Shown: one piece after another, positions 37,445 to 41,376 of the stretch
Position numbering within the stretch: position 1 is the first letter of the stretch
How the letters are laid out: each line of letters opens with the position of its first letter
NCBI GenBank assembly: GCA_022826645.1
Contig: JAJDUM010000017.1
Span: forward strand, 156,223 to 220,222
Origin: Candidatus Poribacteria bacterium
Lineage (GTDB): Bacteria; Poribacteria; WGA-4E; PCPOR2b
Length of the DNA: 64,000 nt
Direction of reading: 5' to 3'
Program-made: the position numbers and the translations under genes
Notes under the pieces: generated by a model
Database searches by the model: none
The model's input: only the letters and a program-made list of their open reading frames with translations
Told to the model about the DNA's origin: nothing

Positions 37445-37831
37445 TTACCAAACAGTATTTACAACTCTACTTTGCGTGATTTGTTCATCTCTGGTAATTA
37501 AATGAGCATCAAAATGAAGTGCAGTCGCTACAATTAGTCTATCGTGCATTTCCAAGTCGCCACTAATGGTCGAAGCAACCTTAAGGATATCAAGTTCCAA
37601 TGCAGTAATGCGAAAGTTCTCATACATCTCAATATGGGAAAGAGTCTCCTCAAAGGTCATAGAAATTCTTCCCTTCTGGGAGATGTACATTATCTCTGCT
37701 AAGACAATCGTAGGAATAAAAATTGCGCCAGCCGTTAGTGTCTGCTCAAATGCTTGGCGCGCATTTTGACTTAGCCTTGGATCATCTATGAAATACCAGA
37801 TGATTGTGTGTGCATCAGCCACATAATTCAT
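37445..37831 (-). CDS. vapC: PIN-domain toxin (VapC-like)
   Basis: A 128-residue PIN-domain ribonuclease. The acidic site is complete: Asp6 (Y-V-A-D-A-H), Glu46 (V-L-A-E-I), Asp97 (E-M-H-D-R-L-I) and Asp115 (I-T-R-D). As a VapC-type toxin it would cut specific RNAs, often tRNA or rRNA, and be held inactive by its partner. Its ATG at 37831 overlaps the antitoxin stop by one base (TGATG), a sign of translational coupling. An in-frame TTG one codon upstream is less likely. The PIN call is firm; the symbol marks the family role. Confidence 0.88.
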   Translation of the reverse strand: MNYVADAHTIIWYFIDDPRLSQNARQAFEQTLTAGAIFIPTIVLAEIMYISQKGRISMTFEETLSHIEMYENFRITALELDILKVASTISGDLEMHDRLIVATALHFDAHLITRDEQITQSRVVNTVW

Positions 37832-38064
37832 CAAGTGTCCTCAAAGCTAAAAAGACTACGGCGAGCATCAAGGAGGTCTTCCTCACTGATTTGACTTCCC
37901 TTCCAGATTCCTTCCAGCGAACCACGTTTTGCTTGCGCTTTATTGGATATTTCGTTGATTTCAATTTCATCAACTTGGCTAGCTAACTGGATCAGCTTTT
38001 CCAGAGTCCCCTTAGGTATTAGGACGCGATTTTCAGAGACACTTTCAACTTGAATGCTTAACAT
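37831..38064 (-). CDS. Antitoxin of the PIN-toxin pair
   Basis: A 77-residue protein directly upstream of the PIN toxin and coupled to it by a one-base overlap. It begins L-S-I-Q-V-E-S-V-S-E-N-R-V-L-I-P-K-G, a pattern like the AbrB/SpoVT-type or other short beta-rich DNA-binding start, followed by an acidic helical tail (E-E-D-L-L-D-A-R) suited to binding the toxin. GAGGAACCAACG precedes the ATG. It probably represses its own promoter, as such antitoxins do, but no operator was recognised. The family cannot be fixed from sequence alone. Confidence 0.78.
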   Translation of the reverse strand: MLSIQVESVSENRVLIPKGTLEKLIQLASQVDEIEINEISNKAQAKRGSLEGIWKGSQISEEDLLDARRSLFSFEDT

Positions 38065-38125: not shown

Positions 38126-39127
38126 CTACAAACCTTTCAATTCTGCGACAATCCTTTCGCCCTTGAGCCGATTGCCAACGCGCACATCCAGGAATTTCCA
38201 GCGGATAACTCCACTCTCATCAATGATATAGGTCATAGGGCGCGCGATCCGAGGATTTAGCGGATCTCTTGCGTTGTATGCATCAATTGTTTTTAGCTCC
38301 GGGTCTCCAAGTAGGGGGAACCCAATTTCAACGTTACCCCGCCGTTTGACCTTCTCAATCGCATTCTTTGCCTTTGCTGCGTTATCTGTACTGATTGCGA
38401 GAAGCTCAGCACCCGCCGCCTGAATCGCTGCATAATCCTGTTGCAACTCGCCGAGTTGCTCAATGCAGGAAGGTCAGAATTCACCCCGATCAAAGACCAA
38501 CACAACTTTCTGCTTGCCTGCATAATCTGCGAGAGCCCGCATCTTACCGTCACTATCAGGCAGGTTGAAGTCCGGTGCTTTCAAGCCGACGGCCAGACCA
38601 TCGCCCTCTGGAAGTTGGTCTGGATTGAGCGGAATAAGTTCGACCTCCAGTTTTACCGTTTCGCCCACTGGGATCGGATCAACAATGAACTCCTGTTTCT
38701 CGTATTCATCAATATCGATGGTAACGGTAAGCTTCTGATCCGCGGCAATCCCTTCAAACTCGAAGACGCCTGAATTAGCTGTTGGTGTCTCTAAAACAAC
38801 CCCGGCTTCATCGGTCAGTTTAACGCTTACGCCGATGAGGGGATCTTTTGTTATCTGATCCAACACGAGCCCGCGAATGATCGGTAATACCTCTTCAACT
38901 TCCTCAGCTTGGTCTGCCGGCGGTTCGGCTGGAATAACAGGGTCTGCCTCCACAGGCGGCACAACCGGCACTACGGTTGTTTCCGGCTGCCCAGTTACAG
39001 TCGGTTCCTTGGTCGTGTCGGGTTCCACGGTAGATTCGTCATCGGTTCCACAGCCAAGGCACAACATCAGGATAGCTGCTAAAGCTATCAATGATTGAAT
39101 TCTATTTACTCCATCTCTCATAGCCAT
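38126..39127 (-). CDS. Selenocysteine-containing peroxiredoxin-like lipoprotein (UGA at 38474-38476)
   Basis: Read through one in-frame TGA, this is a 333-residue protein. Residues 1-26 are a type II signal ending L-G-C, so Cys26 is the likely lipid anchor; then a Glu/Pro/Thr-rich linker; an Ig-like carboxypeptidase-regulatory-type domain (about 84-170: R-G-L-V-L-D ... G-V-F-E-F-E-G-I); then an AhpC/TSA-type domain from 177. The TGA is codon 218 in V-F-D-R-G-E-F-U-P-S-C, where the family has the first Cys of R-G-x-W-C-P-x-C. The frame continues for 115 residues of coherent thioredoxin fold (L-L-A-I-S-T-D-N). A SECIS-like hairpin follows the TGA. The start overlaps the TlpA stop by ten bases; ATG 39121 is an alternative. 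If UGA were a stop, both halves would be dead. Confidence 0.85.
38443..38459 (-). promoter_or_regulatory. Candidate bacterial SECIS hairpin
   Basis: On the coding (minus) strand GCAACTC and GAGTTGC form a perfect 7-bp stem closed by the triloop GGC. The first loop G is 22 nt after the UGA. Bacterial SECIS elements are expected to have a short apical loop with a G in its first two positions, some 16-37 nt past the UGA; this fits. TGCAT and ATGCA outside it could add a lower stem. Confidence 0.8.
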
Positions 39128-39666
39128 TTTTTCAACTCTCTTTCGTAGGTTTCTTTACTTTCCTGCGCACCTTCAAATACCTTTACAATTTCTCCGTTAC
39201 GATTGACGAGATATGCAGATGGTAGGACGGGAACTTGATATCTCTGAATAGTATCGGTATCCGCGAGAAGGATCGGATAGTTAATGTCAGAGCCTTCCTT
39301 GCTCAATTCCTGAAAAAAAGTTTCTATGTTTTTTAGACGCCCGTCTACGTCATCCGCAGATATGCCAACCACCTCAAATCCCTGTGCTTGATATTCATCG
39401 TACAGTTCGATGAAGCGTGGGATTTCCTCTTTGCAAGGTTTACACCATGTCGCCCAGAAATCGACGATGACAACTTTGTCCTGATAATCTGTGAGGCTGA
39501 CCTCTTCAAGTTCTGTGTTTAGCAGTGTAAAGTTAGGAGCAATTTGAAATGAAGGGTCAACGGTGTCTGTTATTTTGTCAGATTCATCGTCTGTAGCGTC
39601 TGAACACGCCACAAATGGTAGCATACAGAATATTAAACCGAACAGGCAAAACAGTTTCGTGTACAT
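39118..39666 (-). CDS. TlpA-like thioredoxin-fold lipoprotein
   Basis: A 182-residue thioredoxin-fold protein with a type II signal ending P-F-V-A-C, so Cys21 is probably lipidated. The redox motif is W-C-K-P-C (Cys75 and Cys78) in the TlpA/ResA-like context F-W-A-T-W-C-K-P-C-K-E-E-I-P, and a P-V-L-P-S-A cis-Pro loop follows later. Such proteins act as extracytoplasmic thiol-disulfide reductants. GGAGGCGTGC precedes the ATG. Its stop overlaps the start of the selenocysteine peroxiredoxin gene, so the two are likely translated together and may form an electron pair; that link is inference. Confidence 0.9.
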   Translation of the reverse strand: MYTKLFCLFGLIFCMLPFVACSDATDDESDKITDTVDPSFQIAPNFTLLNTELEEVSLTDYQDKVVIVDFWATWCKPCKEEIPRFIELYDEYQAQGFEVVGISADDVDGRLKNIETFFQELSKEGSDINYPILLADTDTIQRYQVPVLPSAYLVNRNGEIVKVFEGAQESKETYERELKKWL

Positions 39667-39807: not shown

Positions 39808-40746
39808 TCAACTGAGCCGTAAAATAGTGCCCTTTGATCCAACAATCCAAGCATGCGCTTTATACAGACAGATGTCTAACAGGTGCCACGGCGATCCACT
39901 CGGTTGAGGTGACCATGTGAACCCAGAATCGGTCGTATGCAGAATTAATCCATCTTCGCCAATTGCCCAGCCCTGTTTAGAGTTTCGAAATGCGACGCCG
40001 CGTAGAGTTTTGGGTGTCTTACTTTTCTGAGGCTGCCAGTTCGCACCGCCGTCGGTCGTATTGAGAATTAATCCACCTGTCCCAACGACCCAACCGGTCT
40101 GCGGGTTGACGAAATAAACGCCGAGTAGCGATTCTTCGGTCCAACTTTGCTGTTCACCCCAAGCTTCACCACCGTTATTCGTGTGGAGAATCTTCCCTTC
40201 CTTCCCAACAGCCCAGCCGTGCTTCGCGTCAGCAAAATGCACAGCCCACAGATGTGGGGTCGGTGGTGAATTTTGACGGCTCCATGTACCGCCACCGTTA
40301 TTTGTATGCAGAACGACACCGCCACCACCAACCGCCCAGCCTTCTGTCTCATCCAGAAAATAGATGTCGAGTAGTCCTGCGTCGGTAGGGCTTTTTTGGG
40401 GGGTCCAAGATTTGCCGCTACTTCCCGTATAGTGAATCTGCCCTCTGATACTGACCGCCCAACCGTTGTTGGGAGTCGCGAAATGCACCTTATTGAGTGC
40501 GTTCGGAGTAACCGCTCTTTGGGGCGAACGCACCAACCACGTCACGCCGCCATCTTCTGTGGACAGCACCAAACCGTCTGTACCGACCGCCCAACCGCGT
40601 TTGGCATCGACAAAGTGGACACCGTACAGGTGCGCCTCTGTTCCCGACTCGATTTGTCCCCAGCCCGTCGGTGTCTTATCGCCACCGCAACCGAAGTAGC
40701 TGACAATGCAAACGAAGGTAATCAGTGTATGGATATAGTTCCTCAA
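39808..40746 (-). CDS. Ycf48/BNR-like propeller lipoprotein
   Basis: From TTG at 40746 this 312-residue lipoprotein starts with a hydrophobic signal ending Y-F-G-C, followed by about six propeller repeats of the form G-W-A-V-G-x-x-G-x-I-L-H-T-x-D-G-G-x-T-W (for example G-W-A-V-G-T-D-G-L). This is the pattern of Ycf48/HCF136-like photosystem assembly propellers and of BNR/sialidase-like propellers; no sialidase catalytic set is evident and nothing else suggests photosynthesis, so a scaffold or stress sensor is likelier. GAGGAGG nine bases before the TTG supports this start over a longer in-frame ATG at 40806. The TlpA gene follows 141 nt downstream. Confidence 0.83.
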   Translation of the reverse strand: MRNYIHTLITFVCIVSYFGCGGDKTPTGWGQIESGTEAHLYGVHFVDAKRGWAVGTDGLVLSTEDGGVTWLVRSPQRAVTPNALNKVHFATPNNGWAVSIRGQIHYTGSSGKSWTPQKSPTDAGLLDIYFLDETEGWAVGGGGVVLHTNNGGGTWSRQNSPPTPHLWAVHFADAKHGWAVGKEGKILHTNNGGEAWGEQQSWTEESLLGVYFVNPQTGWVVGTGGLILNTTDGGANWQPQKSKTPKTLRGVAFRNSKQGWAIGEDGLILHTTDSGFTWSPQPSGSPWHLLDICLYKAHAWIVGSKGTILRLS

Positions 40747-41376
40747 GCTCTCGTTCCTCCTCAATTTTATAGAATTGAGACTATCCCCATGCAATTTTCG
40801 TGACAACTTTGGTAGAGAATCAACACCAATCCATCGATGACCACTTGCTCAGATCTGTTATGCACATTGCGCTCCGCCCCGATAAATCGGGACTCAAAAC
40901 TGGAGCGCGGGGATTGGACGTATCGGTATTCTTTAGACATATCGCTCCTACGGAGCGAACGATAAAGCATCTAAATAGACGCGGGTGCCTGCTCCTACGA
41001 GAAGATCAATGGATTTTTAATCAGTAGCAGCTTGGCTATTCCTTAACGTTTAGAATATTCTATCCCATGATTCGGAGTATGCTGCTGCATTGCAGTGGTC
41101 CTCGCTCAAACCAATTATAGTGAATCAGGACTTACGCAGCCAACCGTAGACGGGGCATCTTGCCCCGCACCACCTATGCTGAAATGGGTTAGTCTGTAGG
41201 CGGGGCATCTTGCTCCGTCCTGAAATGCGTAAGTCCTATGAATTATAAAAACATATTGATACCTCTTCTGTAGGGGGCGTACTCTCCGAATCGCGACTGA
41301 ACGCCCTGATAGTCGGGAATCGGAGTTCCCTCTTACAATTCAAAAATGTCCAGTTAATTGTAAAATTCACCATAAA
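40747..41376. other. Repeat-rich intergenic region
   Basis: About 630 bp without a supported gene. Around 40868-40960 are hairpin words GCGCTCCGC..., GGAGCGCGG and CGCTCCTACGGAGCG (a self-complementary unit). At 41127-41237 lies the MITE-like element. The remainder shows nothing I can name. The decayed 3' end of the DUF418 pseudogene borders it on the right. Confidence 0.6.
41127..41237. mobile_element. MITE-like element, 111 bp, perfect 12-bp terminal inverted repeats
   Basis: The ends AGGACTTACGCA (41127-41138) and TGCGTAAGTCCT (41226-41237) are exact inverted repeats. Inside are two copies of a CGGGGCATCTTGCCCCG-type hairpin (about 41149-41168 and 41200-41217; the second has CTCCG), so it looks like one element with its core duplicated. 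Its left ~72 bp match the element at 32724-32795 in reverse. Confidence 0.75.

Follow-up and report, generated by a model that had tools for sequence, protein, structure and literature searches.

A likely selenoprotein with a UxxC active site, a predicted lipoprotein, and its relatives among the Poribacteria

The stretch of DNA analysed here (the window, 64,000 nucleotides) belongs to contig JAJDUM010000017.1 of a Candidatus Poribacteria bacterium (assembly GCA_022826645.1), and the gene in question lies on its minus strand (Table 1). The in-frame UGA at codon 218 of this gene is very probably decoded as selenocysteine (Sec), and the 333-codon protein probably has a redox role; a probability of about 0.9 is given to this reading, which is drawn from sequence comparisons. 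The gene very likely encodes a selenoprotein because the UGA is conserved among relatives, the genome carries the sel genes, a hairpin following the codon keeps its pairing, and selection after the UGA is purifying.

Reading frame of the gene

The gene is read as one frame from ATG to TAG, and its sole interruption is the TGA at codon 218, in the residue context FDRGEF-U-PSCIEQL. When genetic code table 11 is applied, the same DNA gives two open reading frames (ORFs), one of 217 residues (38474-39127) and one of 106 residues starting from an internal TTG (38126-38446). The Pfam AhpC-TSA match runs across the TGA with 98.2 bits, and the CarboxypepD_reg match has 34.4 bits. A preliminary description of this DNA had proposed a coherent frame broken by this TGA only, domain residues on both sides of it, and a gene that a standard caller would split in two, all of which is borne out here.

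Conservation of the UGA codon

In a survey of the phylum (84 genomes), 149 of the 150 matches listed, beyond which more exist, hold exactly one internal stop, which is TGA, and the remaining one holds none. At the DNA level, 50 sites were read, two genes being counted twice through overlapping loci; 49 have TGA and one (L103) has TGT, coding for Cys, and the codon always occupies the same motif position. The motif pattern missed eight of 55 loci (L101, L106, L111-L113, L116, L118 and L122), which were read separately and all carry TGA within a UxxC motif; L101 keeps the usual RGGW motif, and the other seven are without RG and mostly read RxGTUGxC. When paralogues are included, the matched part holds a single TGA in 27 of the 28 homologous loci in the family of nine genomes and none in L054, and these 27 TGAs all fall at an active-site place (13 UxxC, 7 UxxS and 7 of the TxxU type).

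The in-frame UGA aligns with the Cys of homologues, namely with the TGT of L103 and with the first Cys of ResA. In a tree of 57 domains, an all-Sec group of 43 rows is found (support 98/99), and long branches leave the Cys row L103 without a fixed place. L103 itself (G018:C61:3255-6704) has a Cys-form domain in a genome that is 61% complete, with no selA at E 1e-60 and no selD over the cut-off; by eye, it shows a lipoprotein-like start, no evident beta domain, and Ala at the cis-Pro place.

The ratio of nonsynonymous to synonymous substitution rates, determined for 15 pairs of six same-genus orthologues, was 0.043-0.345 after the UGA and 0.053-0.195 over the 130 codons before it; L034 was excluded because its upstream stretch was unaligned and out of register. 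As estimated from these alignments, the selection after the UGA is purifying and about as strong as that before it.

Selenocysteine machinery in the genome and the phylum

The source genome (6.04 Mb, 127 contigs, 94.4% complete, 3.96% contamination) carries a complete sel set. The tRNA-Sec scored 76.6 bits (cut-off 47) with the anticodon tca according to ARAGORN, and selA (599 bits) and selB (368.8 bits) lie directly before it on contig C2. The selD gene, on contig C13 (367.3 bits), has its own single TGA in the motif CG-U-AAK. The preliminary description had named as refuting observations the absence of selA, selB or selC, and varied stop codons or frameshifts at the site in close relatives; selA, selB, selC and selD are all present, and the relatives read show TGA, once TGT, and no other stop or frameshift.

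Among the 84 Poribacteria genomes, selA was matched at E 1e-60 in 71 and a homologue of the window protein (family P0001) at E 1e-20 in 77. Both occur in 67 genomes, selA only in four, the homologue only in ten, and neither in three; one of the ten homologue-only genomes is G018, which has the Cys form. In all six single-contig genomes, the TGA homologue and selA lie on that one contig, and contamination is an unlikely source there because both genes are on the sole contig. Given incomplete bins, these counts fit strict co-occurrence of the homologue and selA, although they do not prove it. In G013, which has neither the homologue nor selA, a selD with a TGA is nonetheless present. A selA match with one in-frame TAA was also seen (G020:C45:3723-5078), possibly a broken or misassembled copy. 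Poribacteria are best known from sponges. PMC5649159 notes that most of its sponge-symbiont bins contain SelA together with SelB.

Hairpin following the UGA codon

Most relatives have the sequence GCAACUC-GGH-GAGUUGC at nt 17-33, where the U of UGA is counted as 0. In the window, this forms a predicted hairpin with the loop GGC and a 7 bp stem, 21 nt from the UGA, with an energy of −13.2 kcal/mol over 45 nt. The model of the bacterial selenocysteine insertion sequence (SECIS), as given in the corresponding section of PMC13188914, has an apical loop of 3-9 nt with G in the first two places, a stem of 4-16 bp, a distance of 16-37 nt from the UGA, and a minimum free energy of at most −7.5, and the window hairpin agrees with these constraints.

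The pairing was followed in 44 distinct sequences, which are the 49 TGA sites minus five identical over 60 nt. All seven positions pair in 36 of them and six of seven in the other eight. With random synonymous codons for the same protein, full pairing occurs in 0.69% of cases and the mean is 4.05, a null that applies per row and not as a joint probability, the rows being related. Both-side changes occur at three of the seven pairs. Paired cells amount to 97.3%, compared with 13.9-53.4% with slid partners and 95.1% (standard deviation 0.2) in column shuffles, and shuffling lowers the covariation score from 0.091 to 0.045. The first base of the three-base loop as drawn is G in all 44 sequences. 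In the seven pattern-missed loci without RG, the hairpin pairs at 7/7 in six and at 5/7 in L113, and in the Cys homologue L103 five of seven positions pair.

When run on the genome itself, the covariance model R1 gave a good score for the window gene only, with the next match at E 0.19. Because only this gene scored well, R1 is specific to the family and provides no scan of the selenoproteome. The Rfam search at the locus gave no match, which carries little weight because we know of no Rfam family for such a hairpin.

Active site and enzyme class

In the alignment with Bcp (2cx3), the residues of Bcp that correspond to Sec218, Cys221 and Pro297 are Ser, Cys and Arg, respectively, and Pro occupies the cis-Pro place in 93% of 48 rows. 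The structure model has a predicted local distance difference test score of 76-94 per ten residues over residues 181-310, and the ResA and Bcp1/Bcp4 rows high in the Foldseek ranking have template modeling (TM) scores by target of 0.80-0.84. The peroxidatic Cys or Sec of peroxiredoxins stands in the motif PxxxT/SxxC. Peroxiredoxins have Arg at the cis-Pro position and a TxxC motif (PMC2757866). The Sec of the window protein is not at the peroxidatic place and its cis-Pro position is not Arg; as judged by alignment only, the nucleophile comes first in a CxxC arrangement together with a cis-Pro, as in ResA/TlpA, and an AhpC/TSA domain with UxxC is present, as in the peroxiredoxin-like (Prx-like) UxxC selenoproteins.

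From this alignment, Sec218 is assigned to the position of the N-terminal nucleophile in a UxxC motif of the thioredoxin/TlpA type, and the predicted protein is grouped with the Prx-like UxxC selenoproteins already known. Prx-like thiol:disulfide oxidoreductase is a better name for it than peroxiredoxin because the Sec is at the thioredoxin/TlpA nucleophile position and the peroxidatic Cys corresponds to Cys221. The earlier placement of the UGA on the first Cys of a WCPxC motif is retained, with the correction that this place corresponds to the thioredoxin/TlpA nucleophile and not to the peroxidatic Cys. Once Sec decoding is granted, the protein could also be a Sec peroxidase that mainly reduces peroxides instead of acting as a thiol:disulfide oxidoreductase, a function compatible with the selenoprotein reading; with the Sec off the peroxidatic Cys position and Pro297 in the position of the catalytic Arg, this function is possible but doubtful.

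The Sargasso Sea survey (PMC1088965) described the UxxC Prx-like selenoproteins, and a 2026 review describes the family as predicted with high confidence (PMC13188914). As these proteins (PF00578, UxxC/UxxU) are described in the pertinent parts of the two papers, they share with the window protein the AhpC/TSA fold, the in-frame UGA followed by a hairpin, and a thioredoxin-like UxxC, whereas Sec peroxiredoxins have TxxU. The window protein differs from those described there in being a predicted lipoprotein with a carboxypeptidase-regulatory-like domain, in the ResA-like gene that adjoins it in some lineages, and in the near absence of Cys forms among the listed homologues from Poribacteria. 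With ResA/TlpA it shares the fold (the TM range above, ResA rows), the N-terminal nucleophile position and the Pro at cis-Pro, but it has Sec for the first Cys and an extra N-terminal beta domain, and its NF002854 (ResA) score of 46.2 bits is below the cut-off of 170. The Bcp, AhpE and 2-Cys peroxiredoxins and PrxU (TxxU) share the fold and the AhpC/TSA profile; in contrast to them, the Sec of the window protein lies three residues before the peroxidatic position and Pro replaces the catalytic Arg, and the PrxU model NF040737 gives 36.8 bits (cut-off 270). A local match to the SelL-related redox protein NF040769 (42.5 bits over residues 184-262) is far under the cut-off of 120.

Alternative readings of the codon

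Since in-frame TGA occurs in many Poribacterial redoxin genes, UGA might be reassigned genome-wide to sense (Trp, Gly or other) or suppressed by a near-cognate tRNA. However, in the genes read, the TGA that lies inside the matched part sits at an active-site redox position; in-frame TGA at non-catalytic positions was not seen within these matches, no whole-genome scan being made. TGA also works as an ordinary stop, as it ends 15 of the 43 long non-overlapping ORFs of the window (the truncated entry of the selenoprotein gene is among the 15), and a second TGA lies near the usual end in several orthologues. Genome-wide reassignment was rejected on the active-site location of the TGA in the matches read and on the TGA stops, and the complete sel set also speaks against this reading, which is highly improbable. 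A real stop, which would make the gene a pseudogene or a truncated 217-residue lipoprotein with the remainder a relic, would agree with the table 11 ORF and with the public protein clusters, of which 139 were found and 120 listed; 119 of these, the cluster of the window protein among them, end just before the UGA, and P0115 ends elsewhere. The real-stop reading was nonetheless rejected with hardly any probability left to it, because 149 of the 150 homologues listed preserve the frame and purifying selection after the TGA about equals that before it, where a relic would be expected to gather other stops and frameshifts.

Several observations weigh against the Sec reading or parts of it. Nine genomes have a TGA homologue but no selA match at E 1e-60. 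The column shuffles reach most of the paired percentage, three of the seven hairpin pairs are invariant and hence uninformative, and the window hairpin, taken by itself, exceeds shuffled sequences in stability by a modest margin only (z = −1.79, 8/200 as good). Over 52 nt, three of the 44 sequences fold less stably than −7.5 kcal/mol, and the minimum-energy fold of several sequences differs from the hairpin. As for the protein, the lipobox is imperfect (CLGC) with atypical −3 and −2 places, the first half of the structure model is poor, and FWATWCxPC was not seen in eight of the 17 upstream sites, six of family f4 and two of G003. The substrate, the reductant and the link to ResA are those that we infer. 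In the nine genomes, selD lies above the cut-off with one TGA in eight, and none was found in G031 (73% complete); the missing selA likely results from incomplete bins.

Predicted export, neighbouring genes and proposed mechanism

Table 1. Positions of the selenoprotein gene, its elements and the adjoining gene in the window
Feature	Position	Strand	Remarks and basis
Likely selenoprotein gene	38126..39127	-	333 residues, Sec218, stop TAG
UGA codon 218, likely selenocysteine	38474..38476	-	homologue conservation; TGT in Cys homologue L103
Predicted bacterial SECIS hairpin, GCAACUC-GGC-GAGUUGC	38443..38459	-	pairing in relatives and published model constraints
Cys221, partner of Sec in UxxC	38465..38467	-	aligns with peroxidatic Cys of Bcp
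Pro297 at thioredoxin cis-Pro position (peroxiredoxins: Arg)	38237..38239	-	alignment, PMC2757866
AhpC/TSA (thioredoxin-fold) domain, residues 180-310	38198..38590	-	Pfam, structure model, Foldseek
Carboxypeptidase-regulatory-like beta domain, residues 84-164	38636..38878	-	Pfam
Predicted signal segment up to Cys26, imperfect lipobox CLGC	39050..39127	-	by eye; lipoprotein-like
ResA/TlpA-type protein, FWATWCKPC	39118..39666	-	10-nt overlap with selenoprotein start

By eye, xGC was found near the N terminus in six of eight sites read, which are all six same-genus loci and neither of the two L034 sites; a helix over residues 9-24 lies in a low-confidence part of the structure model. The carboxypeptidase-regulatory-like stretch occurs once in the window protein and three times in P0021 and P0114. 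The ResA-like neighbour has 182 residues, and FWATWCxPC is present upstream in 6/6 same-genus loci and in 9/17 sites (16 loci). The genome has a single DsbD_TM match (176.4 bits), in a DsbD-like protein of 619 residues, which is a plausible electron source.

Upstream of the ResA-like gene, a YCF48-like (PSII_BNR) repeat protein with a lipoprotein-like start by eye is encoded at 39808-40806 on the minus strand. Directly downstream of the selenoprotein gene, at 37445-38064 on the minus strand, a small ORF is followed by a PIN-like ORF of 129 residues, which by eye resembles a VapBC-type toxin-antitoxin pair.

In the proposed mechanism, SelB would bring Sec-tRNA to the UGA, aided by the hairpin, and the signal segment would direct export and lipidation, giving a lipoprotein outside the cytoplasm whose active site is Sec-x-x-Cys. 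The selenolate of Sec218 would attack a disulfide or peroxide, and Cys221 would resolve the intermediate as a selenenyl-sulfide. The ResA/TlpA-type neighbour may then re-reduce the selenoprotein, perhaps fed by the DsbD-like protein, and the carboxypeptidase-regulatory-like domain is probably a spacer or docking module. This electron route is much less sure than the Sec decoding and the redox role.

Other selenocysteine redoxins in the genome

Among 16 AhpC/TSA matches in the source genome, five genes with six Sec codons are predicted. One read-through frame (G000:C39:33856-34677, L066/L067) contains two peroxiredoxin domains, each with an in-frame TGA in FTGGU (TxxU type), and is likely, from its sequence, a double-Sec peroxiredoxin; the double-TGA frame is also found in six relatives (L041, L043, L044, L048, L055 and L056). 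The AhpC/TSA genes at G000:C34:10438-10821 (L069, UPNS), C39:64437-64820 (L074, UPKD) and C75:19248-19637 (L076, UPSC) have an active-site TGA, and the partner Cys place is Ser in L069 and Asp in L074.

Databases, literature and significance

The protein search scored on residues 176-333 gave 88 proteins; the alignment covers 97% for one of them, a peroxiredoxin Q/BCP of 183 residues, and 25-27% for the others. Relatives can be found by either protein search only if they have short exact words in common with the query. Among plasmids, 11 records showed partial matches below 60% identity, and those listed are annotated as thiol peroxidases or peroxiredoxin-like. The main text of the selenoprotein review PMC13188914 contains neither 'poribacter' nor 'sponge', and no report of this protein was found in the open-access library searched, which lacks most subscription papers. 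The enzyme kind, a Prx-like UxxC selenoprotein, is already known; the predicted lipoprotein with its carboxypeptidase-regulatory-like domain, the ResA-like neighbour, and the wide, nearly Sec-only spread hidden by truncation look new.

The redox function is missing from annotation because nearly all the database proteins listed stop short of the active-site residue. The family offers a dense natural series in which one SECIS-like element can be followed over many species, and the Cys form, from a genome in which selA was not detected, provides a comparison case. The gene also offers a way to test for selenium-dependent chemistry in the envelope of a bacterium. The chances are about even that Poribacteria are a hidden selenium-rich phylum, with almost Sec-only envelope redox lipoproteins, several Sec redoxins per genome and a redox relay on the cell surface that depends on selenium, all of this being masked by database entries, since nearly all of those listed end at the UGA.
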